A stretch of 64,000 nt of DNA, from NCBI GenBank assembly GCA_021292105.1, contig CM037865.1, positions 24,283,928-24,347,927 on the forward strand, in the 5' to 3' direction. The position numbers were made by a program, and so were the translations under genes. The DNA is from Anadara kagoshimensis. Its lineage: Eukaryota; Mollusca; Bivalvia; Arcoida; Arcidae. Each line of letters starts with the position of its first letter. The stretch's first letter is position 1. The notes under the pieces were generated by a model. It searched no databases. It was not told the DNA's origin and was given only the letters and a program-made list of their open reading frames with translations. This document shows positions 11,100 through 62,697 of the stretch, in pieces.

Positions 11100-11839
11100 T
11101 CTATATCATTGCAGAATGTTTACATTACAAATGCATTGCCTTATATGAATCTCTTTGGAACCATTGCGTTAATTTTTCGATGACAGCAGTGTGTCGCGCG
11201 CTCTGTGTAAAGCGATACGTCAGTTAATATCTTCAGCCAATCCGCTTTCGATGTACAGCGGAGGAATACATACCACCAAGGGACTACTTATTCATTCATA
11301 ATTTCCTGCGGGTTCATTCATAAATCTATCCGGCGACCGTGCAGGGACGCTTTTACGAGCGGTAACAAACGTAGAAATTTGTCATACTGCACCAATTTTA
11401 AATATGATTTGAAAATAAAAAAGAATAATAAAAACCAATATTTGTTGTCTTTTTATATCAAAATAATTTTTTAATGATTAATGTCCATTTCCCATGGCCT
11501 ATAAAGATACGAAGTGAAAAAAATTAGTGAGTCCGAGGACACCACATTTAAATTATGAACAACTGTTTGTTATTCGACTAAATAATTATATTCATGGTAA
11601 TATCTTACCAAACAGATTATTGTTTAGTGAAAAAAGGAGAAATCGAATTTAATTTTCAAATGTGTTTTACGGAACTATATTTTACGATCGCCAAGCAACG
11701 AGACAAATCAACATGGCTGTTCTCTTTATATGGTTCTACAATAAGAGTTATCTCGCTTTAAGTGTTCCAACCACATTATTACACCGACTTTCGGAAAATT
11801 AATAATACCTTTTTGTGGGTAAAAATAATGTAAACATAA
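11100..11839. other. Non-repetitive sequence with promoter-like words, no gene
   Basis: The stretch contains GTCGCGCGCTC, ATACGTCAG and a CCAAT box (AGCCAATCCG near 11,236), then AT-rich sequence. No reading frame, splice signal or repeat could be assigned. A role as promoter for an unseen transcript is possible but not shown. Confidence 0.3.
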
Positions 11840-11990
11840 GGATTGAATGTTACTTTGAATGCTGTCATCGAGGTATGACTGCATCAGCTCACGTTCAAAG
11901 TTAACATGAATCGCTTCGCGATTCACTTACTTTGAACGTGAGCTGATGCAGTCATACCTCGATGACAGCATTCAAAGTGACATTCAATCC
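11840..11990. repeat. Long near-perfect hairpin (about 73 bp arms, 3 nt loop)
   Basis: The left arm at 11,840-11,914 and the right arm at 11,918-11,990 are reverse complements with only a few mismatches, around the loop GAATCGC-TTC-GCGATTC. The shared segment is open in one frame on both arms (FERELMQSYLDDSIQS). The right arm continues into unique sequence to about 12,060, so it may be an inverted copy of a coding or UTR segment. A transcript would fold into a long double-stranded RNA. Confidence 0.85.
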
Positions 11991-12102
11991 TTAACTGAAT
12001 CTGGACTTCCAAGACATGGGATTCTTCGCGCCAAAACCATATGCAGCAAAGAGATACTCGAAACCTGCTCTTTACGCAATTAGAAGTGACGAAAGCCAAC
12101 TC

Positions 12103-12250: not shown

Positions 12251-12745
12251 TTAAGTTATTATAGTCAAATTTCGCGTATTAAGGCAGTCAATTAAATAGT
12301 TTGACACAAGTCTTGTGTTTGTCGTAAGAATAGTTCCAAGAATATCATATGAGATTGGATTACTGTTGACCATGGTATCCTGTAGTGTTGCCAAAAATGG
12401 TGTCCTAATGTCTGTGTATAATTCACAATGTAAAGTAAAGTGTTTTTCTTCTTCCACTGACCCAGATTTACAATAACGGCATATTCGTCTATCAAGCGGT
12501 ATTTGTCTGTAACGCCCTTTTTCTACTTCAATGGGGAGAGTTCCACTTCGCAAGCGCGCGATGGCCGACTTTTGTTTTCTGGTGAGTGGCTGTTTCACGT
12601 ATTGTTCGTCGATATATTCAAATTTTACATTTTTGTACACCCGTAATTTCGACATGTTTTCAACATCCTGTTTCCATTTACTAATGTACTTGTCCTTTAA
12701 TGTTGAGTCAATTCTGTGTAGTATTTCACGTTTTTGTCCTCCCAT
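12251..12745 (-). pseudogene. LINE C-terminal region with zinc knuckle
   Basis: This is 164 codons. PLTRKQKSAIARLRSGTLP precedes RRICRYCKSGSVEEEKHFTL and HC, a C-x2-C ... H ... C knuckle typical of CR1/Jockey LINE C-termini in molluscs and amphioxus. It follows the YADD piece directly and ends about 40 bp from the TatD-like exon. Confidence 0.8.
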
Positions 12746-13599
12746 TAAGTTGTTTCTGTTGAGTATTTCTGATAATCCACATTGGTCGAGAATAGATTTG
12801 ACATTGTTGGTCCATGTATTTTATATTTAATCGATAATCCGTTGTCCCAAAGTAAAACCTTCCGGCTAATTCTATGTTCCGGCATAGATGATATCCGACA
12901 CCAGAGATCAATTATATTTCGGTGGAATAAAATTTTAACTGGGTACCAACCCATATCCCCCATGATAGCGGGTATTGGGGCGCATTTTCCGACTCCGAGA
13001 AACGTTCGAATTGCTCTATATTGTATTCTTTCCATACAGTCGTACGTTTTATACCCCCAAACTCCTGAAGCATATTGCATAATAGGACTTACAGTCATTT
13101 CAAAAATTTTAGTGAAAGTATCATAATCCATCCCGTCCAGAGTGAAGTACTTTGATATCAGAGATCCTAGAGCTCTACTGCTAGCTTTTTTAAGTTCATC
13201 GACACCAACACTGTAGTCGGCAGTTTCCGAGATCGTATATCCGAGGTAACAGTATTTACTGACATACTCTAATTGTTCACTACCCACGAAAAGATCTGAT
13301 TCCGACTGGGGTGTGGATGCCTTCCTTACGTGCATTACTTTTGATTTATCTGTATTTATGGATAATTTCCAGTGTTCGGTCCAGCTATGTAAAGCGTCAA
13401 GCTGACCTTGTAGACCATCTAGTGTGTCGGAAATTAAGACTAAATCGTCTGCATATAGCAATGCACTTATAAGTTCGTTTCCAACAGATACTCCCGATTC
13501 CACAGAATTGATTTCAGATATAAGATCATTAATATAAAGAGCAAAGAGCGTAGGCGCTAGATTATCACCCTGTCTGACGCCAGATTCAACGGAAACCAA
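12745..13599 (-). pseudogene. LINE reverse transcriptase, C-terminal half (YADD)
   Basis: This is 284 codons. GVRQGDNLAPTLFALYINDL (motif B region) lies at residues 7-26. YADDLVLIS (motif C, catalytic) is at 49-57. Thumb sequence follows, including KCAPIPAIMGDMGWYPV. The piece ends in STETT followed by TAATG, where the stop overlaps the ATG of the next frame. This looks like decay rather than designed coupling, because the three pieces align as one LINE protein. Confidence 0.85.
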
Positions 13600-14375
13600 T
13601 CTGTTAAGTTGTTGTTAATGCGTACCGCACATTTAAGATTGCTATACATCGATTTTATCACCCGATATATATTTCCTGTTATGCCCGCACACAGAAGCTT
13701 ATTAAACAAAAGATCGTGGTTGACGGAGTCGAATGCCTTGTTAAAATCTACAAAACATACAAAGGTGTCTTTTTTCATCGTTTTTCTATTTTTAAGAATC
13801 GTAGATAGGCCAAAGATGTGGTCTAAACATGATCTTTGTCGACGGAATCCATTTTGTTCCTCGCAGAGAATGTCATTATCTTCCAAATGTCTTAATACTC
13901 TAGCGTTGATGATGCTACTAAATATTTTCGCTACTGTCGACATTAACGTAATACAATGGTATCCCAGTGGATCGCGATAGTCCTTTCCTTTTTTCAAAAT
14001 CGGATGTATAATACTGCTGCACCAAACTTCTGGTATTACATTATATGTTAAACACACATTAAACAGTTCACATAATACTGTAACTAGACTTTCTTGTTTA
14101 AGAATTTCATTTGGAATATTATCAGAGCCAGTAGCTTTACCGTTTTTTAACTTTCTCAATGCGTTTTTTATTTCGTCAATTGTGATTTTGTTGTTCAGAT
14201 TTGTTGTAGGATCAAGATCGTTCTCCTCCCATTGTGCGTTGATTTGTTTGATAAATTGTACAAATTCATCACTGTCGTTATTTGCTTCCTTAGAGAATAA
14301 ACGCGAGTAGTCTTCTTTCCATTTTGACAATATTACACCACTATCATTAGAAATACTACCATCATCTAGCAACAC
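13557..14375 (-). pseudogene. LINE reverse transcriptase, N-terminal half
   Basis: This is 272 codons. Residues 60-90 hold ITIDEIKNALRKLKNGKATG, the KxGKAxGxDxIPxE signature. A PLGYHCITLMSTVAKIF segment follows (the RPI-L motif region, with Y-H replacing the usual R-P). Then comes EEQNGFRRQRSCLDH. Motif A is VDFNKAFD at about residues 209-216, giving one catalytic Asp pair. The frame ends in SDRVII and is continued in another frame by the next piece, so a one-base frameshift separates them. Confidence 0.85.
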
Positions 14376-14467
14376 ACTATCGATTACACGATTTTGTTTC
14401 CCTGGACCGATTTATATATCCATTAGTTTATTACTTCATGTTGATTTATATATTGTAACATATTATA

Positions 14468-15720: not shown

Positions 15721-15778
15721 TGTCATATACCATTTTTTTAATTTAATCATAAAATACATTTAAAAATGGTATATGACA
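15721..15778. mobile_element. ~58 bp palindromic mini-element (TGTCATATACC type)
   Basis: It starts TGTCATATACCATTTTTTTA and ends TAAAAATGGTATATGACA. Arms are complementary over about 20 bp around an AT-rich centre containing AATCATAAAATACA. The flanks here do not show a clear 4 bp duplication. It belongs to the family at 40,355, 49,240, 50,640, 52,457, 55,334 and 58,437. Confidence 0.75.
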
Positions 15779-23050: not shown

Positions 23051-23399
23051 GTACTGTACTTATGTTTGGTCTTGTTATTGATTTTGTCTTTGTGCTTTAC
23101 TCAGTGCAAAATGTCATAATTTAAATTGTAAAATCCTTCCTATAAAATTTTAAATTCTTTTGAAAATTGACAATTATGAAATGAAATCCATAGCGTAATA
23201 TTTGTCATTCTTATTATGAATCACGGATGTTGTTCAGTAGTAATGGTTGTTTGCAAACTAAATTTTCTGCATATTAAAATACATTACAACAATATTCCAA
23301 AGTAGCATTGTGTCATGTGCTATTTATTTTTTTTTCTAAAATTAGATGTTAAAAATGATAACACTTGTAGTCTGTGATATCTATTTTTACATGTATGAC

Positions 23400-23775
23400 A
23401 TTTAGTAATAAATCAAAAACAAACATACTAATCCATGTCCGAACCACAACCCAGAAGCAAAGTAAAAACTTTGGAACTGACAAGATAAGTTAGACACGTG
23501 AACTTCCACCAGGGAAGTGAAGCCTTGTGCTCCGGAATGGTAATTATAAATAGTTTATGTTTAGCTAGCTACACCCGTCACGTGTGTATTCAAAATAGTG
23601 TGAAAGGAATATGGAACTATGGGACGTCAAATATACCCAGAGCAATCCTGGACACAGAGACATCAAACTTATCAACAATACTGTGATGACGTCCATAAAA
23701 ACTTTTTGAGGGTCTTGATAAGATTGGACCCGCAATTTCTCTGGGTCAACAATTCATTTGCAAGCAGCCTGCTTC
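23400..23775 (-). mobile_element. Penelope-like retroelement 3' fragment
   Basis: On the minus strand it has a coding tail (LLANELL ... LIKTLKKFYGRHHS-like, broken), the box GGAGCACAAGGCTTCACTTC and the 3' end with GACATGGATTAGTATGTTTG. It closely matches 36,160-36,545 and 37,840-38,095. Confidence 0.68.
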
Positions 23776-24084
23776 ATTTAGTAACAAATATTTTTATTTA
23801 GTTTTCCACCTTCATAGTTACATCATATTTGTATTCTGCTGCGTAAATTGATTATTGTAAATAATTAGACTATAAGCTTGTAAATTGCTTTATGCTTATT
23901 AAGCTACAATATTAAAAAATGTAATTAAGTAATATTGAATAATCTTCAATATACACACACATATTAATGATATAACTTACCTGGCTACCTGTTATGTGTA
24001 TACCTGTAAATTGTAATAGTCTTACATGATACTGTAAAATGTGGCAGAATTTATATGAAAAATCGCATGGACTAATGATGTGTT

Positions 24085-24999
24085 ATGTCGCAGAATCTTA
24101 AGAAAAGAAGACGTAGGTTTACTGATATAGATAAACATTATTCTCCTCTGATCGAAGCCATTGTTAATGAAAACAGTGATAGTGATAGCGATAGTTCAAA
24201 TATCATAACAAATTCTGAAATTGCTAAAATGAATACTGACAACCAGGTTTTGCTAACTCTCGCCGATACAGATGTCAATCGTATTGCAGAAGCTGTTAAA
24301 GTTTCATTAAAAAGTGAAATAGTGACTGAAATAGCATCAACTGTCAAAAATGTTTTCACTGAATTTGTTAATGAAATGAAATTCGAAATAGCTGTTCTAA
24401 AACAAGAAAACACCGCTTTGAAAAATGAAAATCAGGAACTGAAGCTATCTATTGATGAGTTAGAGCAATACGGTAGACGTAACGCTGTCAGAATTTCTGG
24501 CATCCCGGAGACACCCCAAGAGGATACTGATGCTATCGTCAGAGATGTTGCATCCAAAATGGGGGTTACTATAAATGAGGAGGATATTAGTAGATCGCAT
24601 CGCTCAGGGCAATCAGGCAAATCCTACCCACGACAGATCCTAGTTAAATTTACACGTTACAACACTAAACGAAAACTACTCAAATCACGACGTGAAATGA
24701 AATCTGTAACAACACTAAAACACGTTTACATAAACGAGGACTTGACGAAACGCCGATAAGCATTATACATGAAAACACGTGAACTCCTAAAACAGGGTAA
24801 AATTAACAAATCCTGGACATGGGATGGAAAGATTTTCCTGACAGACAAATCGAATAAAAAAATCAGGATTGACCGTCAAAGTGATTTGGATCCCTTCATA
24901 GGAACACTTTCACAGCAAACATCCATGGAATTTCAGCAAGCTAATCCTATATCATCAACCCAGGCCAGGACATATGCTTCTGCAGTTTCTACAACATAG
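24085..24999 (+). pseudogene. LINE ORF1 protein (coiled coil + Transposase_22/RRM-like), one internal stop
   Basis: The ATG at 24,085 opens 224 codons to TAA at 24,757-24,759. The frame then continues in register to 24,999. N-terminal residues are basic (KKRRRRF) and then Ser/Asp-rich (SDSDSDSS). Residues 85-150 form a coiled coil (EIAVLKQENTALKNENQEL) ending in LEQYGRRNAVRISGIPE, the hallmark entry to the L1-type ORF1 RRM. DISRSHRSG, PRQILVKFTRY and VYINEDLTKRR follow. After the stop, LLKQGKINKSWTWDGKIF completes the C-terminal domain. ORF1p binds element RNA as a chaperone. Only the single nonsense codon breaks it. No ORF2 follows, and the element's 3' end lies about 450 bp downstream. Confidence 0.85.
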
Positions 25000-30457: not shown

Positions 30458-30672
30458 CCAAAACAGATAGTGAACCATGCCTGAGTAGGACGAAGCCAGA
30501 GGAAACTCTGGTGGAGGTCCGTAGCGATTCTGACGTGCAAATCGATCGTCAAACTTAGGTATAGGGGCAAAAGACTAATCGAGCCATCTAGTGGCTGGTT
30601 CCCTCCGAAGTTTCCCTAAGTATAGCTGGTGCTCTTTCGCAGTTTTATCCGATAGGTTTAGTAACTATAGAA
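30458..30672 (+). pseudogene. 28S ribosomal RNA fragment inside a transposon
   Basis: TGAACCATGCCTGAGTAGGA, CGAAGCCAGAGGAAACTCTG, GTGGAGGTCCGTAGCGATTC, TGACGTGCAAATCGATCGTC, ACTAATCGAGCCATCTAGTG and GCTGGTTCCCTCCGAAGTTT follow each other in exact 28S order (domain II region). They then run to CAGTTTTATCCGATAGG. A few substitutions (GCCATCTAGTGG for ACCATCTAGTAG) and a diverged 3' end show that it is not a working rRNA gene. It is about 215 nt of a 3.5+ kb molecule. Confidence 0.92.
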
Positions 30673-36545: not shown

Positions 36546-37345
36546 TTAATATTGTTGTGAATATGTATCCATTTTGCAATTAGTTAGATATTATTGTAAA
36601 CATGTATCCATTTTTCAATAATTTAGATATTATTGTGAACGCATATAAATTTTGAAATTAGTTAGATATTATTGTGAACGTGTATCCATTTTGCAATTAT
36701 TTAGACATTATTGAGAACGTATATAAATTTTTACATTAATTAGATATTAATGTGAACATGTATCCATTTTTCAATTGGTTAAATATTATTGTGAACGTTA
36801 ATCCATTTCGCAATTATTTAGATATTATTGTGAACGTTTATCAATTTTGCAATTGGTTAGATATTATTGTAAACGTATATAAATTTAGAAATATGTTAGA
36901 TATTATTGTGAACAGGTATACATTTTGCAGTTGTTTAGATATTGATCTGAACATGTATCCTTTTTCAATTATTTAGATATTATTGAGAATATATATACAT
37001 TTTTCAATTATTAATATAATATTGAGAACGTATATTAATTTTTAAATTTATTAGATATTAATGTGAACATGTAACCATTTTTCAATTGGTTAAATATAAT
37101 TGTGAACGTTTATCCATTTCGCAATTGTTTAGATATTATTGTGAACGTATATAAATTTAGAAATATGTTAGATATTATTGTGAATGTGTATCCATTTTGC
37201 AATTGGTTAGATATTATTGTGAACATGTATTTATTTTGCAATTGTTTAGATAATATTGTGAATATGAATCAATTCTGCAATTGTTTAGATATTAATGTGA
37301 ACATGTATCCTTTTTTCAATTAGATATTATTGCGAACATGTATCA
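36545..37345 (+). repeat. Satellite of ~39 bp units (about 20 copies)
   Basis: The unit TTAGATATTATTGTGAACGT followed by (A/G)TATCCATTTTGCAATTGG recurs about every 39 bp, with some 60 bp spacing from indels. Because 39 is a multiple of three, frames stay open and give 13-residue repeats (NVYPFCNWLDIIV), which I take as an artefact. Decayed single units continue to about 37,540. Confidence 0.9.
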
Positions 37346-37839
37346 ATTTTCTAAGAGATCATTGTTAACATGCATCACTTTTTTAAGATGATTATTGTGA
37401 ATATGACTGTATCCATTTTAAAACTGATTATATATCATTGTGAATATGTAACCTTTTTAGATATTCTAACTATATATATATTCATTTTAAAATTTATTAT
37501 TATTTGTGAATATGTATTCATTTTAAAATCGGTTAAACCATATTCATTACTACAACAACCCAGTTTTTACAGATTACAGTCACATTTTATAATAATTTAT
37601 TTTCTCCTTGTGACATCATTTTATTAGGCAGTTCCAAAAGGTTTTTTCGCTGGTTCCGTAAAAATTTCAATTTTTCTTCAAATTGAATAGCTGTAAAGTT
37701 GTAAACTTTGATCATGTGATCAGATACCTCTATGTCCAGTACCACTTACATTATGATCTGGTCAGGTAATGCGTGAACCTCATAATCAGCTACCAATCGT
37801 TCCTTTTAGAAAAATAGGTGGGGCTGTTGGACATAATCA

Positions 37840-38095: not shown

Positions 38096-40354
38096 GTTTT
38101 CAATTTGAAGTGAAATTAAAACACTAAATGAAGCGCGCAAACTTTCTGACATAAGATTATGAGCATAAACAGAGCCTGGCATTGTTCATTAGAGAAAATT
38201 GTATTTTTTTTTGTAAAATGTGGCTGCAATCTGAAAAATACCGATTTTAGTAAATTGAATATCGTTTAGATATTATTGTGAATATATATCTTTCTTCAAA
38301 TTGATTAAGTAAAGTACTAATGCACTTAAAACAAGAAGTGCCATAAATATGGTAAGTTGTTGGGTAACCCTAATAAATGAGTAAAGAGATGTAAAACTAC
38401 ACACAAATGCACTGCTCTAGAAGCCTGGGGCAGTCTACGGTGTCTAGGATTGTAAGAAATAAATGTGTTATGGGTTTTTGCCTGTAGATGTGCACACAAG
38501 GCAAAAATTGTTTAATGCATGTAAATTGGTTAGATAATATTGTGAATATTTATATACATGTATATTTATTTTGAATTTTTCATATATCAGTGTAAATATG
38601 TATCCATTTTTAAATTGGTGAAACCATTTTCATTATTACTAAAGCCCTGTTTTACAGATTGTAGTAACATTTTATCATAGTATTTTAGATTTTTGGGTAG
38701 TTACCTAATGTACAATATCAGTCTCTGCTCAAAATCTTATTCCAAATTTCTGTTCGTGCCGTTAACATTTTTAATTCACTTCAAATTGAACACCTTTGAA
38801 CCTTGAGCATATGACCAGATACCTATTACCAATATATACTTCCTTTTATCATTATAATCTGGTCTGGAAGTGCGTGATGTCATCTCTTTTAAGGAGAAAA
38901 AGATGAAGTTATTAGACGTAGAAATTTTACAATTTGAAGTGAAGTTGAAAATTGTATGGAGCACGCAAACTTTCTAAAATAAAATAATGAGTAGATACCC
39001 ATATTGTACATTAGGTTGCTATCAAATAAAAGAAATGTCACTGGAGAAAATTGTAATTTTTTTGTAAAATGTGGCTTAAATTTCGGAAAAACAGAGTATT
39101 AGTAAAATGGATATGGTTTAGATGTATTCATTTTTAAACGGATTAAGTTACGTACTAACGTACTTAAAACAATATCGTAAGTTGTTGGGTAACCCTAATA
39201 AACGAGTAAAGAGATGTAAAACTACACACAAATGCAGCTATAAAAGCCTGAGGCAGTCTACTGTGTCTAGGATTGTTAGGAATAAATGTGTAATGGGATT
39301 TGCCTGTAGATGTGCACACTACGACAAATTGTTTTAGGCATGTTAATTGGTTAGAAATTAATGTGAATATATAGGTCTATGTACATGTATATTTATTTTA
39401 ATTTTTTTCATATATCAGTGTGAATATGTATCCATTTTAAAATTGATTGAACCATATTCATTATTACAAAAAGCCCGTTTTTACAGATTGTAGTCGCATT
39501 TTATAATAATTTATATTTTTTTTCTAGTGACATCATATTATTAGGAAGTTATTTTTTTGTATTGGCATCATTTTAATAGGTAGTTAACTAATGTACAATG
39601 TCAATCTCTGGTCAGAATTGTATTTCAAAACGTTTGTTCCGTAAATTTTACTTCAAATTAAACAACAAGTTGTAAACCTTGATCATGTGACCAGATGCCC
39701 ATATGCCCATTACCACTTTCTTTTATCATTATGATCTGGTCAGTTATTGTGTGATGTCATCCTCATTACCAGCTATCAATCATTCCTTTTAAGGATAAAA
39801 ACGTGTTGTTGGACATAACATGTTTTCAATTTGAAGTGAAATTAAAACAATATATTTTTACAGATTATAGTCAAATTTAGTCATAATTTTTAGTGGCATC
39901 ATCTATTAGGTAGTTTCCTTATGTACAATGTTAGTCTCTGCTTAGAATCTTATTCCAAAAGGTTTGTTCGCTCCGTCATAAATTTCAATTCACTTCAAAT
40001 TGAACACCAATGAACCTTGACCATATGTCCAGATAGCCATTAATAATATATACTACCTTCTATCATTAAAACCTGGTCAAGAATTACGTCATGACATCCT
40101 CATTACCAGCTATCAATCATTCGTTTAAGAATAAAAAGATGGAATTGGAAATTTTAAAATTTGAAGTGTAATTAAACATTTCAGGGAGCGCGCAAACTTT
40201 CTGAAATAAGATAATGAGCAGATACTGATATTGCACATAAGGTTACTTCCAAATAAAAAAATGTCACTAGAGAAAATTGTAATTGTTATGTAAAATGTGG
40301 CTGCAATGCCTGAAAAAAAAACTGATTTTAGTAAAATGAATATGCTTTAGATAT

Positions 40355-40413
40355 TGTCATGTGCTGATTTTGAATTGTTATGTAAATAATGCATTCAAAA
40401 TCAGCACATGACA
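40355..40413. mobile_element. 59 bp palindromic mini-element (TGTCATGTGCTGA type), ATAT duplications
   Basis: The left arm TGTCATGTGCTGATTTTGAA is mirrored perfectly by TTCAAAATCAGCACATGACA, with a 17 nt centre. ATAT flanks both sides (40,351-40,354 and 40,414-40,417). The disrupted host sequence is the satellite word GATATTATTGTG, and removing the insert with one ATAT restores it exactly. Confidence 0.9.
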
Positions 40414-40656
40414 ATATTATTGTGAATATATAAACATTTTCAAATTGATTAAGTTAAGTACTAATGCACTTAACACAAGAAGAGTCATAAGTTGGAGGGT
40501 AACCCTAATAAATGAGTAAAGAGATGCAAAAGTACACAGTAATGCAGCTTTAAAAACGCAAGGCAGACTATGGTGTCTAGGATTGTAAGAAATAAAATGT
40601 TTTGCTTTTGGTGTGCATGTGTGTCCTAGGTCAAAAGAGAAGTGTTACTTCTTTCC

Positions 40657-48634: not shown

Positions 48635-48815
48635 TTATCACGCTCAAGTCACAAATATTGTTCAAAAATATGATCAATATACAATAATATTACTTTTTAT
48701 TTTAACAATCAGGACATGATCTGGACATGGTCAAAATGCAATATAATATTCTATAAGTTCATGAGAACTTAAAAAATCTGAACATAACGTTCCTATTGAA
48801 CAGTAGGGTTCTCGC
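48088..48815 (+). repeat. Repeat X, copy 2
   Basis: Homologous to 42,632-43,260, with an expanded (TTTTA)n of about 11 units at 48,478-48,532 and (GA)n at 48,604-48,632. It ends TATTGAACAGTAGGG next to the SINE body. Confidence 0.82.
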
Positions 48816-49025
48816 GAGTGCTCGCTCCGTAAGTGGGAGGTCGTGGATTCAAACCCCGATTGGGTCTGACCCAAGACTTGACAGTGGGTAGTGGCTATTC
48901 TTTCGCAAAGCACTCGGCATTACGAAATGAAAGTCACGATTCATTTGGATGGAAGCTGGGGACGTCTCGATATAAGTCGATGTTCTTGACTGAGACGTTA
49001 AACACCATTACTCAATTCAAATCAA
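48816..49025 (+). mobile_element. SINE body (anticodon arm, B box, tail), unit 1
   Basis: GAGTGCTCGCTCCGTAAGTG, the B box GTCGTGGATTCAAACCCCG, AAGCACTCGGCATTACGAAA, GTCTCGATATAAGTCGATG and GACGTTAAACACCATTACTC. It is the 3' portion of the SINE whose head is at 47,121. Confidence 0.85.
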
Positions 49026-49239
49026 CTCCTTCTACAGTGCTTATGGGGTTTTAATAAACCTAGTTGGATATGATCAGCATAGGGGATAGTAGTATATGCC
49101 ACTTCGTTAACATGTAAAAGGTATAATAAGGGATATTTTAGCTGCTATTGAGAGTTTTCTCTGGAATGGGACATGTATTATTTATGCAATCACTGACTGC
49201 AATAAGGTTTGTATGTTCATTTATAGTCTTAATCATGAC

Positions 49240-49297
49240 TGCCATATACCATTTTTAATATATTTTATGATTAAATTTAAAAAAATGGTAAATGACA
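49240..49297. mobile_element. 58 bp palindromic mini-element, unit 1
   Basis: TGCCATATACCATTTTTAAT ... AAAAATGGTAAATGACA. Its centre is in the opposite sense (TTTTATGATTAAAT) to the 15,721 copy. It abuts the Penelope-like fragment, and a 4 bp duplication is not evident. Confidence 0.7.
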
Positions 49298-49560
49298 GCG
49301 ACAATTATCACAATATTGTTGATAAGTATGATGTCTCTGTATCCAAGATTATCCTGGCTATATTTGAGGACCCATAATTCCATGTCTCTTTAATTTCGCA
49401 CGTGACGGGTGCATTTAGCTAAACAAGCAATGTTTACCCTTCCGGAGCACCCGAACTCGCTTTCCTAGTGGAAACTTGCGTATTTATCTTAATTTGTCCG
49501 TTTTCGATTTTTTACTTTGCTTTTTAGATTGTGATTTTAACATGGATTGCAATTAACGTA
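49298..49560 (+). mobile_element. Penelope-like retroelement 3' fragment, unit 1
   Basis: It starts CACAATATTGTTGATAAGTA-TGATGTCTC and passes CACGTGACGGGTGCATTTAG and CCTTCCGGAGCACCCG. It ends AACATGGATTGCAATTA. The second copy is at 55,391-55,655. Confidence 0.7.
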
Positions 49561-49997
49561 ACCGTCATGTTCTTAAATAAAATTTAGGTTAAGCTATCAA
49601 TTTCGTTAAAATTATTTTCGCGTCAGGTAGACAGAAATAGCACATCATTCTTCCCTTAATTCTAATTTAATTACTTAAATTCGTTATATTGTTTTTAGGG
49701 ATAATATTTTTCTAGTATGAGGCGTTACTATTTTTCTAAAGAAAGCTTTTGATTGGGTTTTGTGTTGTTACTAATACGAAACTTCCACCAATGAAAGATT
49801 TGAATGGGTTAGGTGTGTTTTATGAAATTGGTTAAAATTTATAATTTTTACAATATCTAGAAATTTCCAGTGCTATGAAGACCAGAAAACCGATGCCAGA
49901 CTTTATCTACAGAGCCAAACTATTCTCAGCTGTTTTTGTCATAATTTTATGATGTACCAACAAGATGTCTAGAAAATACTTGAAATAGGTAACGGCT

Positions 49998-49998
<1 letters not shown>

Positions 49999-50036
<38 letters not shown>
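49999..50036. repeat. (TAA)n microsatellite, unit 1
   Basis: About 12 units. The counterpart in unit 2 is at 56,097-56,130. A second tract is at 50,133-50,185 (unit 2: 56,217-56,258). Confidence 0.93.
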
Positions 50037-50037
<1 letters not shown>

Positions 50038-50131
50038 TAATAATAATTTTTGTCACATATAAAAATTAAATATTTATATAAAAATCTTGCAAACTATTTA
50101 AAAATTCTATATCGGACCAAATATGACCTAC

Positions 50132-50185
<54 letters not shown>

Positions 50186-50282
50186 TGTTGTTGTTGTTAG
50201 ACATAAAAATTGAATATTTCTATACCAATTATGTTAGAAGATTCTTTTTAAAAAACTTCATTCGACTACGTATGACCTACCT

Positions 50283-50639
50283 ATGTTTTGCGTATTCAAA
50301 AAGATTAATAATTTGAATTTATCAATAGAATGTCAATTAAAACTCTTTGATCACATGGTTGAACCAATTCTTACTTACAGTTGTGAAGTTTGGGGATTTG
50401 AAAATTTAAATTTATTGGAAACGCTTCACCTTAAATTTTGTAAACGAATATTGAATTTACGTAAATCAACACCAAGTTATATGGTATACGGCGAGTTGGG
50501 CAGATTCCCAATAAGTATATAAATTTATAAGAGAATTGTCTCATTTTGGTACAAAGTGGTTAATTACGAAAACAAACTGACTTTTCTAATGTATAAATTA
50601 CTGCTTAACGTGTGTGATATTAAAACAGTTCCATGGATA
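50283..50639 (+). pseudogene. LINE RT thumb region remnant
   Basis: MFCVFKKINNLNLSIECQLK, HMVEPILTYSCEVWGFEN and YMVYGELGRFPISI, a TAA in frame, then YKRIVSFWYKVVNYENKL and LLNVCDIKTVPW. W-G ... E-L-G-R-x-P is typical of CR1-like LINEs downstream of the catalytic core. It is interrupted at 50,640 by the palindromic dimer. Confidence 0.75.
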
Positions 50640-50763
50640 TGTCATGTGCTACTTTTGAATTTTTATGAAATAATACAATTCAAAAGTAGCACATGACAAT
50701 TAATTGTCATGTGCTACTTTTGAATTGTATTATTTCATAAAAATTTAAAAGTAGCACATGACA
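50640..50763. mobile_element. Dimer of 59 bp palindromic mini-elements, GATA duplications
   Basis: Two 59 bp units (50,640-50,698 and 50,705-50,763) each run from TGTCATGTGCTACTTTTGAA to its inverted end. They are joined by the palindromic spacer ATTAAT. GATA flanks the pair (50,636-50,639 and 50,764-50,767). The insert lies in LINE coding sequence. Confidence 0.9.
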
Positions 50764-50863
50764 GATAGCAAAAAAAGAAACATTTTAGATTCTTTAGGAT
50801 TGAGTAACGTTTGTTTTTCACAAGGTGACGGAGTTAATAAAAATTGGTTATTAAAAGGGTTCA

Positions 50864-52027
50864 TTCCCACTTAGCCAACATTTTGAAAATTTGTACCTAT
50901 AGGTGAGATTTTAAATGTTGGCTGAGTGGGAATTGATGTTCGTTGTAAGATTAGCAAAGACAATAGGTATTAATTACAGGTGAGGGTAAAGTCTGTTTCA
51001 GAAAATCAATAACAAAATTATAAAATCTGAATAAAAATATTTCTTTAAATTAGATGTGGATTTTTTTTTTACAGAATTACTAACTATATCAATAAAATTA
51101 CTTGTTAGAAATTCAAACTTATTAAGAAATTCAAACTTGATTTTGTGTACAAGGAGATGATATAAATTTACCATTTTTCCACCATAAAAAAGAAAATTTC
51201 CTAAAAATGATGCGGCAAAAGGAAAACTTAAATACATTTTTATATTGCATTGTATGATATTTCAAAAGCCCATTAGAGAATTTGATCATGTCTATGGAGT
51301 TTCATGTTCTTTAAAAAGGTCTTTAAAAAGTGGATTATCAAATAATTCCTCTACTGAAGAACCATATTAGACCTCTCTCTCTCTCTCGTTTGTTAAGAAG
51401 TCATGAAGCTTTAGGTACATGAAGTTTTTAGAGAAAAATATTCACAACAAAGGTATTACATGTATAATATTTAAGAAAGAATAATAATAAATTTTATAAT
51501 ATTAATCTTTTTTTGAGAAAAAAACTCAGTTGCATTACATTTTAATTGTTTAACTTATTGAAACAGGCAAACGTGCTTATTTCAATTAATGAAAAAAATG
51601 AATTTAAAATGTTTAAAACTTGCAATATTTACACAGAAATGAATTAAAGGTTTAATACATACATGTATAATGTTTTTTTGTTTATTGATATTTTTGTAAG
51701 ATTATTAATTGTGTTTGATATTTTGTTCAGCGTTCAGTAAATAATAATAATAATACTTTATTGCAAACAGCAAACAATAAATTGCTACAGCATTACAAAA
51801 TGTATTAAATTATGTTACAACATGACAAATAACAAATAAATAACAGAGAACAGTCGGGTGTTGAGAAGTTGAGACTTGAGTAGCCAGTAAAAAAAAAAGA
51901 TTTTTAAATATTTTTCAAACATTACAAATCTTAAAATATAATTGCCTAAACTGACCAAACCTCTACAAACACATATATTAAATTAAAATATTCAGCACCA
52001 CAAAACATTTATTTATTTTTATATACT

Positions 52028-52062
<35 letters not shown>

Positions 52063-52231
52063 TTGAATTTTTTGTGACTTTTATGATATTCTACGTAAAA
52101 TATTCAGCACCACAAAACAATTTTGCTGAAAAAGACTATAGCAAAATCTTTCCAGGTGAAATCTTAAGTGTTTATTTAACCATGTTGGCTAAGTGGGAAT
52201 AGGAAATTTTAAAATGTTGGCTAAGTGGGAA
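50864..52231. mobile_element. 1.37 kb insertion with TTCCCACTTAGCC inverted ends
   Basis: The left end TTCCCACTTAGCCAACATTT is mirrored at the right (AAATGTTGGCTAAGTGGGAA, 52,212-52,231). Subterminal inverted copies lie at 50,912-50,932 and 52,182-52,199. The interior is AT-rich, with (TTTA)n at 52,025-52,062 and a duplicated AATATTCAGCACCACAAAAC (51,989 and 52,098). It also holds a minus-strand retroelement-like 3' end (TTTGCAATAAAGTATTATTA as read on that strand, 51,735-51,765). It separates two halves of LINE coding sequence. Confidence 0.6.
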
Positions 52232-52235
52232 GACA

Positions 52236-52751
52236 CCATTAAAAGCTGTTGAAAGAAAATTACAAGACCAATTTATTCAAAAATGGGAGGGGGATATATC
52301 AGGTTCGTCAAAGGGGATAATGTATAGAATAATAAAAACTAATTTTGAATTTGAAAATTATCTGGACATTCTGTCGCCTAAATTTAGAATAGAATTGACA
52401 AAAGTTAGAACTTCAAATCATAATCTTCCCATTGAAACTGGTCGTTGGCATAATATTGTCATATACCATTTTTTGAATTTAATCATAAAATACATTCAAA
52501 AAATGGTATATGACAATATTCAAAGGCACGAAAGATACTGTACTTTTTGTAAAACTGAACTGGGGGACGAATTTCATTTTTTGTTTGTTTGTGAACGCTT
52601 TAAGACTTTGCGAAAGCAGTTAATACATGCAAGTTTCTACAATAAACCAAACATACTTAAGTTAGCTAAACTTTTAAATTCTACAAACCAAACAGTTCTG
52701 ATCAACTTATGTAAATTTATAAAAAATGGATTTAAGGAGGTTACATTTTAA
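52236..52751 (+). pseudogene. LINE C-terminal region with zinc knuckle
   Basis: KAVERKLQDQFIQKWEGDIS and KVRTSNHNLPIETGRWHN, then (after a 59 bp insertion) IQRHERYCTFCKTELGDEFH and FLFVCERF. This is the C-x2-C ... H ... C knuckle of CR1-like LINEs. The frame closes at 52,751 with FKEVTF. The palindromic insert happens to keep the frame open. Confidence 0.85.
52457..52515. mobile_element. 59 bp palindromic mini-element (TGTCATATACC type), ATAT duplications
   Basis: The arms TGTCATATACCATTTTTTGA and TCAAAAAATGGTATATGACA surround a 17 nt centre. ATAT flanks both sides (52,453-52,456, 52,516-52,519). Removing it with one ATAT restores GRWHN-IQRHERYC of the LINE protein. Confidence 0.92.
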
Positions 52752-54733: not shown

Positions 54734-55125
54734 CACTGCGGTATCTCAGTTGGCACATACGCAGATGATCAATATACAATAATATTACTTTTTATTTTAA
54801 CAATCAGGACATGATCGGGACATGGTCAAAATGCAATATAATATTCTATAAGTTCATGAGAACTTAAAAAATCTGAACATAACGTTCCTATTGAACAGTA
54901 GGGTTCTCGCGAGTGCTCGCTCCGTAAGTGGGAGGTCGTGGATTCAAACCCCGATTGGGTCTGACCCAAGACTTGACAGTGGGTAGTGGCTATTCTTTCG
55001 CAAAGCACTCGGCATTACGAAATGAAAGTCACGATTCATTTGGATGGAAGCTGGGGAGTCTCGATATAAGTCGATGTTCTTGACTGTGACGTTAAACACC
55101 ATTACTCAATTCAAATCAACTCCTT
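54734..55125 (+). mobile_element. Split SINE, unit 2 (head 54,734-54,755, body from 54,911)
   Basis: The head CACTGCGGTATCTCAGTTGG-CA is separated from the body GAGTGCTCGCTCCGTAAG by only 155 bp, the end part of repeat X. In unit 1 the separation is 1.67 kb. The tail GACGTTAAACACCATTACTC ends near 55,125. Confidence 0.82.
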
Positions 55126-55333
55126 CTACAGTGCTTATGGGGTTTTAATAAACCTAGTTGGATATGATCAGCATAGGGGATAGTAGTATATGCCACATCG
55201 TTAACATGTAAAAGGTATAATAAGGGATATTTTAGCTGCTACTGAGAGTTTTCTCTGGAATGGGACATGTATTATTTATGCAATCACTGACTGCAATAAG
55301 GTTTGTATGTTCATTTATAGTCTTAATCATGAC

Positions 55334-55390
55334 TGCCATATACCATTTTTAATATATTTTATGATTAAATTAAAAAAATGGTAAATGACA
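55334..55390. mobile_element. 57 bp palindromic mini-element, unit 2
   Basis: Duplicate of the 49,240 copy with one base lost in the central A run. Confidence 0.7.
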
Positions 55391-55655
55391 GCGACAATTA
55401 TCACAATATTGTTGATAAGTATGATGTCTCTGTATCCAAGATTATCCTGGCTATATTTGAGGACCCATAATTCCATGTCTCTTTAATTTCGCACGTGACG
55501 GGTGCATTTAGCTAAACAAGCAATGCTTACCCTTCCGGAGCACCCGAACTCGCTTTCCTAGTGGAAACTTGCGTATTTATCTTAATTTGTCAGTTTTCGA
55601 TGTTTTACTTTGCTTTTTGGATTGTGATTTTAACATGGATTACAATTAACGTAAC
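55391..55655 (+). mobile_element. Penelope-like retroelement 3' fragment, unit 2
   Basis: Duplicate of 49,298-49,560. Confidence 0.7.
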
Positions 55656-56094
55656 CGTGCATGTTCTTAAATAAAATTTAGGTTAAGCTATCAATTTCGT
55701 TAAAATTATTTTCGCGTCAGGTAGACAGAAATAGCACATCATTCTTCCCTTAATTCTAATTTAATTACTTAAATTCGTTATATTGTTTTTAGGAATAATA
55801 TTTTTCTAGTATGAGGCGTTACTATTTTTCTAAAGAAAGCTTATGATTGGGTTTTGTGTTGTTACTAATACGAAACTTCCACCAATGAAAGATTTGGATG
55901 TGTTAGGTGTGTTTTATGAAATTGGTTAAAATTTATAAATTTTTACAATATCTGGAAATATTTCCAGTGCTATGAAGACCAGAAAACCGATGCCAGACTT
56001 TATCTATAGAGCCAAACTATTCTCAACTGTTTTTGTCATAATTTTATGATGTACCAACAAGATGTCTAGAAAATACTTGAAATAGGTAACGGCT

Positions 56095-56130
<36 letters not shown>

Positions 56131-56215
56131 TTTTGTCACATATAAAAATTAAATATTTATATAAAAATCTTGCAAACTATTTAAAAAATTCTATATCGGG
56201 CCAAATATGACCTAC

Positions 56216-56257
<42 letters not shown>

Positions 56258-56584
56258 TGTTGTTGTTGTTAGACATAAAAATTGAATATTTCTATACCAA
56301 TTATGTTAGAAGATTCTTTTTAAAAAACTTCATTCGACTACGTATGACCTACCGTCGGAGACACCGATAAAAATATATTAAAGATACACATGTTTTGTTC
56401 GATAAAATTAAATCAATATATTTAATACACCATTTAGTTTTTGGTCGGTGTGTAAATAAATTTACAAAACATTTACAAAACATTTAAATTGCCGAACACC
56501 AAACACTTGTTTTGAAAAAAAATTATTTGTTATTGCACCTTTAGTCTACACTTGTTTCATGTAACTACACTTGTTTCATGTAAA

Positions 56585-58140: not shown

Positions 58141-58436
58141 GTTTTGTTTTGTTTTTCGTATGATGATTATCTCCCTTGTTTACACTGTCTCTCGCATGTA
58201 TGCGAATAAAAATAAAGTGATTTTACTGTCTTATTGATTGATTTTTGTTTTAATGTAGGGAAATTTAAAAAAAAAAATAAAAAAAAATAAAAATAAAAAA
58301 ATAAATAAAATCTAAAAAAATTGGCTTCATTTAACATTTTAATCTTAATCAAAATCAAATAAAAATTATTTTCCATGGGAAATATTTCTTCAAATTTGAT
58401 ACACAAGAGAAAGTTATATAATTTTCTTTTCAGTGG

Positions 58437-58551
58437 TGTCATGTGCTGATTTTAAATTTTTATTAAAATAATGAATTTAACATCAACTAGTTGCTATGTG
58501 CTGATTTTGAATGCAGTATTTAAATACAAATTCAACAGCAGCACCATGACA
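58437..58551. mobile_element. Decayed dimer of palindromic mini-elements, GTGG duplications
   Basis: It starts TGTCATGTGCTGATTTTAAA and ends AGCAGCACCATGACA. The centre ACTAGT joins two hairpins, the second beginning TGCTATGTGCTGATTTTGAA. GTGG flanks both sides (58,433-58,436 and 58,552-58,555). Confidence 0.82.
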
Positions 58552-58849
58552 GTGGAACAGGAAGAAATACTGTTTCCACACCCCAAGTTAATAACTAGAA
58601 ATTAAAATCTCTTTCTATAAGATGGTCAGGTCAGTTTTACCGGGTGTAACAGTTAATTCTTTAGTATCTGTGGTTCATTTTTTCACAGATCAAGTGCTGC
58701 TGGTAGACTTTTTGCAGCTAAAGTACTAATGCACAGATGCAATATTAATCTAATTCTGACTGTCTCCAAAATGACATGGATCAAGTTCATGTATCTACCT
58801 TCAGTCCAGAGGATGCTTCATGTCTTTTGGGTAAGGAGTAGAGTAAAAG

Positions 58850-62123: not shown

Positions 62124-62394
62124 AAATATATGGTAATTGTAACAGCAGGCGTCTGGCTGATATAGTTACAAGTGAAGAAACATGGGTATATTACTTTTAG
62201 CCACATAGAAAGATAAATAATAAATATGGCTAACCAGAAAAGGAAAACGACCTGAAATTGCAAGGCGCACTCTACGCACAAAGAAAGTTCTTTATGCTAT
62301 ATTTTTCAATAGTAACGACATAGTTGCCCAAATTCCCATCCTTAAAGGCCAGGGTATCACGGAAAACATTTATAAAAATAAAATTCTTAAGAAA

Positions 62395-62697
62395 ATGAAA
62401 AAAAAATATGAAAAGAAAAGACCAAAGTCAGGAATTCGTGGTATTCGGTTTCTCCATGACAATGCTCCTGCTCACAAATTTAAGTTGGTGACTGAATTTT
62501 TGTACAAGGAACGTGTTGTTGTTTTACCTCATCCACCTTATTCACCTGATCTTTCACCGTGTGACTTTTATCTCTTTCCTAGACTTAAGGAACACCTTTC
62601 TGGTCGTCGATACAGATCTCGTTCATCGCTAGGTTCAGCAATTCATCAGTTTCTCAATGGTACATCCAAAAAAAAAATAATATGCAAATGTATTTAG
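62395..62697 (+). pseudogene. mariner transposase, catalytic C-terminal half
   Basis: RFLHDNAPAHKFKLVTEFLY carries the second catalytic Asp, and YSPDLSPCDFYLFPRLKEHL carries the third. There are 34 residues between the two Asp, so this is DD34D (mariner proper). The frame ends early in an A-rich frameshift (KKKIICKC). Confidence 0.92.

Follow-up and report, generated by a model that had tools for sequence, protein, structure and literature searches.

Human MADE1 is a non-coding, near-perfect palindrome of 80 bp that consists of two 37-bp repeats plus 6 bp (PMC1784062). The CMITE elements of Acropora corals are about 100 bp long and can sit side by side; they carry TTAA duplications, are related to piggyBac, and their arrays have been attributed to replication slippage (PMC2872659). 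Sponge mitochondria contain repetitive hairpin-forming elements, which are very small, show complementary substitutions between types and have an unsettled mechanism (PMC2800124). Ginger2 elements have TGTNR ends, 4-bp duplications, AT-rich targets with a preference (not absolute) for RTATAY, and inverted repeats of 50-180 bp, and the duplications of Ginger1 are CCGG or CCGT/ACGG (PMC2836005). IS481EU elements, known from parabasalids, have TGT...ACA ends, duplications of 4 or ~15 bp and inverted repeats mostly shorter than 50 bp (PMC10045372). According to a survey of bivalve genomes, Ginger and Sola elements are present there but rare (PMC10294476). A search of PMC4726161 for a minimum size of MITEs gave no relevant passage.

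The palindromic element described here, from a 64-kb stretch of Anadara kagoshimensis DNA (the window), is real, mobile and unusually short, and it also exists as inverted dimers. Like MADE1, its units are palindromes in which two inverted repeats enclose a very small centre, but they measure 58-59 bp rather than 80 and have 4-bp duplications and inverted dimers, whereas MADE1 is derived from the mariner-like Hsmar1 and has unrelated ends. The initial annotation had implied a gulf in size between such units and ordinary MITEs. Because MADE1 is already an 80-bp near-perfect palindrome (PMC1784062), that claim is not supported in this form, and size alone does not make a categorical difference. 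It is the dimers and the mirrored changes in the arms that lift the element above a routine MITE. CMITEs are likewise small MITEs that may adjoin one another, but the units here form inverted dimers with one duplication outside, and the sponge hairpins are similarly tiny, with complementary substitutions between types, but they are mitochondrial, whereas the units here have 4-bp duplications and empty sites. A literature search at the level of titles and abstract openings, with most subscription papers and the repeat databases outside its scope, found no palindrome of such a size with both 4-bp duplications and inverted dimers.

The combination of TGT...ACA ends and 4-bp duplications offers a lead towards an integrase-like transposase, possibly of the Ginger2 or IS481EU type. 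As in Ginger2/TDD elements, the well-kept ends of the units read TGTCA (TGCCA at the 5' ends of those at 49,240 and 55,334) 4-bp duplications are present, at four of six loci, and the targets are AT-rich, but none of these four duplications is TATA and the inverted repeats are only 17-22 nt long. The TGT...ACA ends, the short inverted repeats and the 4-bp duplications are also features of IS481EU, the last in some of its families; these elements, however, were described from parabasalids, and no transposase-bearing element was seen in this window. None of the four duplications is CCGG or CCGT/ACGG, which differs from Ginger1, or TTAA, which differs from piggyBac and TTAA MITEs.

Palindromic units in the window

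The initial annotation listed eight units of one design. Units do exist at all eight places, but they represent six independent loci in the 64-kb window, belong to two subfamilies (A and B) and include two inverted dimers. The host genome is AT-rich. TGTCAT...ATGACA palindromes were confirmed at 15,721 (58 bp) and at 40,355, 50,640, 50,705 and 52,457 (59 bp each), and the units at 49,240 (58 bp) and 55,334 (57 bp) are degenerate, the 5' end of each being TGCCAT. The units are as follows; strand is given in this and later lists where a feature has one.

15,721-15,778, monomer of subfamily B, 58 bp, 17-nt perfect arms, without flanking duplication
40,355-40,413, monomer of subfamily A, 59 bp, 21-nt perfect arms
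49,240-49,297, degenerate monomer of subfamily B, 58 bp, centre opposite in orientation to that of 52,457, without flanking duplication
50,640-50,763, inverted dimer of subfamily A, in which the spacer ATTAAT separates a unit (50,640-50,698) from a reverse-complement unit (50,705-50,763)
52,457-52,515, monomer of subfamily B, 59 bp, 22-nt perfect arms, within a LINE-like reading frame
55,334-55,390, second copy of the 49,240 insertion, produced by segmental duplication and not independent
58,437-58,551, decayed inverted dimer of subfamily A, 115 bp, with halves from 58,437 and ~58,493-58,551 and a degraded junction

The arms named for the units are TGTCATGTGCT or TGTCATATACC. They are not uniformly 21 nt around a 17-nt centre, as first proposed: perfect arms measure 17 nt at 15,721, 21 nt at 40,355 and 22 nt at 52,457 and 50,640, and the corresponding centres 24, 17 and 15 nt. 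The units at 49,240 and 55,334 both lie inside a duplicated block of ~1.6 kb (48,670-50,281 and 54,765-56,353), long pieces of which are 98-100% identical, and are therefore counted as one locus. As hairpin RNAs, the well-kept 59-bp units have predicted energies of -26 to -34 kcal/mol and the 124-bp dimer has one of -89 kcal/mol.

A profile built from seven units was searched against the window. Beyond the listed units and both halves of 58,437-58,551 (E 1.3e-4 and 1.1e-3), the sole further hit was a half-match at 23,311, and a weak one (E 0.03). A longer element with similar ends, at 23,311-23,400, was considered and dropped as it has no flanking duplication. When the window was scanned for hairpins (arm score at least 16), the hits, TA runs aside, were the listed units, a large palindrome near 11,870 and one further palindrome at 50,863-50,933. 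Rfam gave a single match in the window, to a fragment of LSU rRNA, and none over the hairpin units.

At the 50,640 dimer, the second unit differs at one of 59 positions from the first unit read in reverse complement (58 identical), and the whole forms a 124-bp palindrome with one mismatched pair. The locus at 58,437, originally taken for a 59-bp unit, is in fact a decayed 115-bp inverted dimer that ends at 58,551, with GTGG lying outside the whole dimer. Alignment of the two centres scores 23.0 inverted against 7.0 direct at 50,640 and 10.5 against 2.0 at 58,437, where the cores were cut by hand, so a direct-repeat arrangement was rejected for both. The two dimers have the same forward-reverse-complement arrangement relative to the 40,355 centre.

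Target duplications and empty sites

Perfect 4-bp duplications had been reported at four independent loci, and all four hold. At the TGTCAT/ATGACA boundary the flanking 4-mers are identical at four of the six independent loci (ATAT, ATAT, GATA and GTGG), as listed here.

40,351-40,354, ATAT, 5' copy for 40,355; 3' copy at 40,414-40,417
50,636-50,639, GATA, 5' copy around the whole 50,640 dimer; 3' copy at 50,764-50,767; neither unit alone is duplicated
52,453-52,456, ATAT, 5' copy for 52,457; 3' copy at 52,516-52,519
58,433-58,436, GTGG, 5' copy around the whole decayed dimer; 3' copy at 58,552-58,555

Identical 4-mers at the same spacings occur by chance in this window at a rate of 0.67-0.85%, and the probability of finding at least four among six loci is 7.7e-8. 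When the boundary was shifted symmetrically from -6 to +6, the count was 4/6 at 0 and 0/6 at every other shift. The units at 15,721 and 49,240 show no flanking match at any length from 1 to 10 bp; their duplications may have decayed or been lost.

Both dimers are duplicated outside the pair only and therefore entered the host DNA as one piece. Two neighbouring but separate insertions at 50,640-50,763 were rejected as an explanation, since neither unit has a 4-bp duplication of its own. Inverted dimers thus exist and are bounded as units at insertion, and their insertion as units is the least ordinary part of the case.

Host sequences that could be compared with and without an insertion are the following.

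38,218-38,333, plus strand, paralogous repeat that continues across the site of the 40,355 unit, has one ATAT and lacks the hairpin
50,238-50,522, plus strand, upstream LINE-like frame whose continuation contains the 50,640 dimer
52,203-52,751, plus strand, 182-aa open frame that resembles the C-terminal part of a LINE and continues across the 52,457 unit

Removal of the unit had been said to restore the host sequence at 40,355 and 52,457, and it does so, as seen from a paralogous repeat at the former and from protein relatives at the latter. The flanks of 40,355, joined with one ATAT, match 38,218-38,333 from end to end (86.7% over 120 columns), and a run of 24 identical bases bridges the junction. 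The hairpin is also missing from a third copy of this host repeat, at 38,880-39,286, but that copy has its own gaps there. At 52,457, the unit and one ATAT amount to 63 nt, which adds 21 codons to the 182-aa frame. Of 67 candidates in a protein search with this frame, 41 relatives had E 1e-3 or better. Each of them extends across the site, and the 21 inserted residues are absent from every one (41/41). The closest relative, P0001, aligns with the joined frame over 121 positions, of which 116 match, those of the junction LPIETGRWHNIQRHERYCTFC among them.

The search with the frame around the 50,640 dimer gave 38 relatives from 54 candidates, two of which carry a Pfam reverse transcriptase. The dimer site is readable across in 12 of the 38, and an insert of that size is present in none of the 12. 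With a single GATA at the join, 11 nt remain where 12 would be expected from the relatives; with both GATA copies retained, the frame is restored but is one codon too long. The join being inexact, the site supports insertion but is not by itself proof of a duplication. Pfam assigned no family to the 50,238-50,522 or the 52,203-52,751 frame. We call the frames LINE-like because of their reverse-transcriptase relatives and a Cys-His motif which we take to be typical of LINE C-termini.

The units form a discrete palindromic family that was inserted at unrelated sites with 4-bp duplications. The original view of the element as mobile and palindromic with such duplications is backed by the flank statistics and by the two empty-site comparisons.

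Subfamilies and symmetry of the arms

Subfamily A comprises 40,355 and both dimers, and subfamily B comprises 15,721, 49,240 and 52,457. Within each subfamily the centres align clearly and in one orientation. Alignments between the subfamilies are weak: 9-10 of 1000 shuffles were as good as the alignment of the 52,457 centre with those of 40,355 and 50,640 (10 for 40,355), and 73-88 were as good as the alignments of the 15,721 centre (88 for that with 40,355). Common ancestry of the A and B centres was not accepted on such alignments, and the two subfamilies may share only their ends and design.

All units have the outer TGTCAT/ATGACA, with two exceptions: the 5' end of 49,240 and of 55,334 is TGCCAT, and in the 58,437 dimer the inner ends are degraded. 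Just inside the outer six bases A and B differ symmetrically. Over the outer 17 nt, pairwise comparison of 40,355, 50,640 and 52,457 gives 2, 5 and 4 differences, each of which is mirrored in the other arm (2/2, 5/5 and 4/4). Decayed copies do have unmirrored changes, at positions 3 and 7 of 49,240 and position 18 of 50,705. The arms were thus kept symmetric while the subfamilies formed, and single copies were free to decay later. Symmetric binding by a transposase or hairpin copying of one arm from the other would both produce such symmetry, and the data do not choose between them.

Origin and mode of movement

The units very probably constitute a non-autonomous transposon with terminal inverted repeats (a MITE) of 58-59 bp, present as two subfamilies and moved in trans by a putative transposase with a 4-bp stagger. 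They are short and non-coding and have terminal inverted repeats, with a 4-bp duplication at four of six loci and empty sites for 40,355 and 52,457. Such an element would consist of little beyond its two terminal inverted repeats, with arms of 17-22 nt and an AT-rich centre of 15-24 nt. A DDE-type transposase supplied in trans would bind the arms, cut the target with a stagger of 4 bp and join both element ends to it, and gap repair after joining would yield the 4-bp duplication. Inverted dimers would insert as one unit by their outer ends, and may have arisen through fold-back copying of one unit together with 3 nt of its flank, ATT being mirrored as AAT in the spacer. The centres of palindromes are unstable, which agrees with the degradation of the junction in the 58,437 dimer, the older-looking of the two.

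Searches of the window, the Pfam search among them on 10 chosen frames, revealed no autonomous relative or transposase with the same ends. The full palindrome has no copies in viral contigs, where the B arm also has no match, and prokaryote genomes hold no copies, although neither source says much about a eukaryotic element. The A arm has one lone, non-palindromic match in a viral contig, which was taken as chance as it has no partner arm.

The TA bases next to some units could point to a Tc1/mariner-type MITE with TA duplications, the true element being T-TGTCAT...ATGACA-A. With the boundary moved to +1, both 40,355 and 52,457 have TA at each end, and a mariner-like DDE_3 coding stretch is present in the window at 62,224-62,697. 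These two are, however, the only loci of the six with TA flanks at +1, the count is 0/6 at the other shifts from -6 to +6, and both have the duplication ATAT, which itself contains TA. At the GATA and GTGG loci only a 4-bp duplication agrees with the flanks, and identical flanking 4-mers are absent from all six loci once the boundary stands at +1. As only two of six loci fit, this type of MITE was rejected and we regard it as highly improbable. An origin without any transposon, through fold-back repair synthesis at breaks or from local structural sequences, finds some resemblance in the 124-bp palindrome, which is almost perfect and has a spacer, ATTAAT, that is itself palindromic, but local repair predicts neither the recurrence of two sequence families at unrelated loci nor their 4-bp duplications and empty sites. 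The empty sites strongly disfavour such an origin, and we give it almost no credence.

Among transposon models, the inverted dimer of 115-124 bp could be the ancestral form, with the monomers as products of deletion or recombination. That both dimers are duplicated outside the whole element, and are alike in their forward-reverse-complement order relative to the 40,355 centre, speaks for this. Two monomers, however, have exact duplications of their own and clean empty sites, which means that monomers insert in their own right, and subfamily B has three monomer loci and no dimer; we consider dimer ancestry unlikely. A variant of the MITE reading makes the dimer the working form and not a by-product: the element would move as a folded hairpin, or as a head-to-head pair copied by fold-back, with its outer ends joined to the target, and hairpin copying would keep the arms identical even as the subfamilies diverge. 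This form is proposed because a straight 59-bp duplex seems too short and stiff for a transposase to pair it end to end, which makes that configuration doubtful, but we hold the variant itself to be quite unlikely.

If the elements move as seen, they would place a lower bound on the DNA that a eukaryotic transposase needs, namely two arms of ~20 bp with almost nothing between them. Dimers with a single duplication make it testable whether short palindromes move as straight duplexes, as hairpins or as pairs. Where transcribed, the units would be ready-made hairpin RNAs, a route that has been proposed for miRNAs from MADE1 (PMC1784062).

Other sequences in the window

Several further repeats and coding remnants were recorded in the window.

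11,837-11,993, a different palindrome of ~157 bp with ~65-nt arms, one mismatch and a 27-nt centre; its flanks are not of the 59-bp family
12,251-14,411, minus strand, LINE-like reverse transcriptase in adjacent frames, with RVT_1 in two of them
24,079-24,759, open frame that weakly resembles L1 ORF1 (Transposase_22, 23.7 bits with the cut-off at 22.4)
30,470-30,584, isolated large-subunit rRNA fragment (Rfam archaeal LSU model, 93.9 bits)
36,549-37,350, ~21 copies of a 39-bp unit
50,863-50,933, imperfect inverted repeat with 21-nt arms, one mismatch and a 29-nt centre (ATTCCCACTTAGCC...)
62,224-62,697, mariner-like transposase fragment (DDE_3, E 2e-9)

The host repeat of the 40,355 hairpin contains single stretches related to the 39-bp unit. 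A motif similar to the inverted repeat at 50,863-50,933 is found within a 32-bp repeat at 52,182-52,251.
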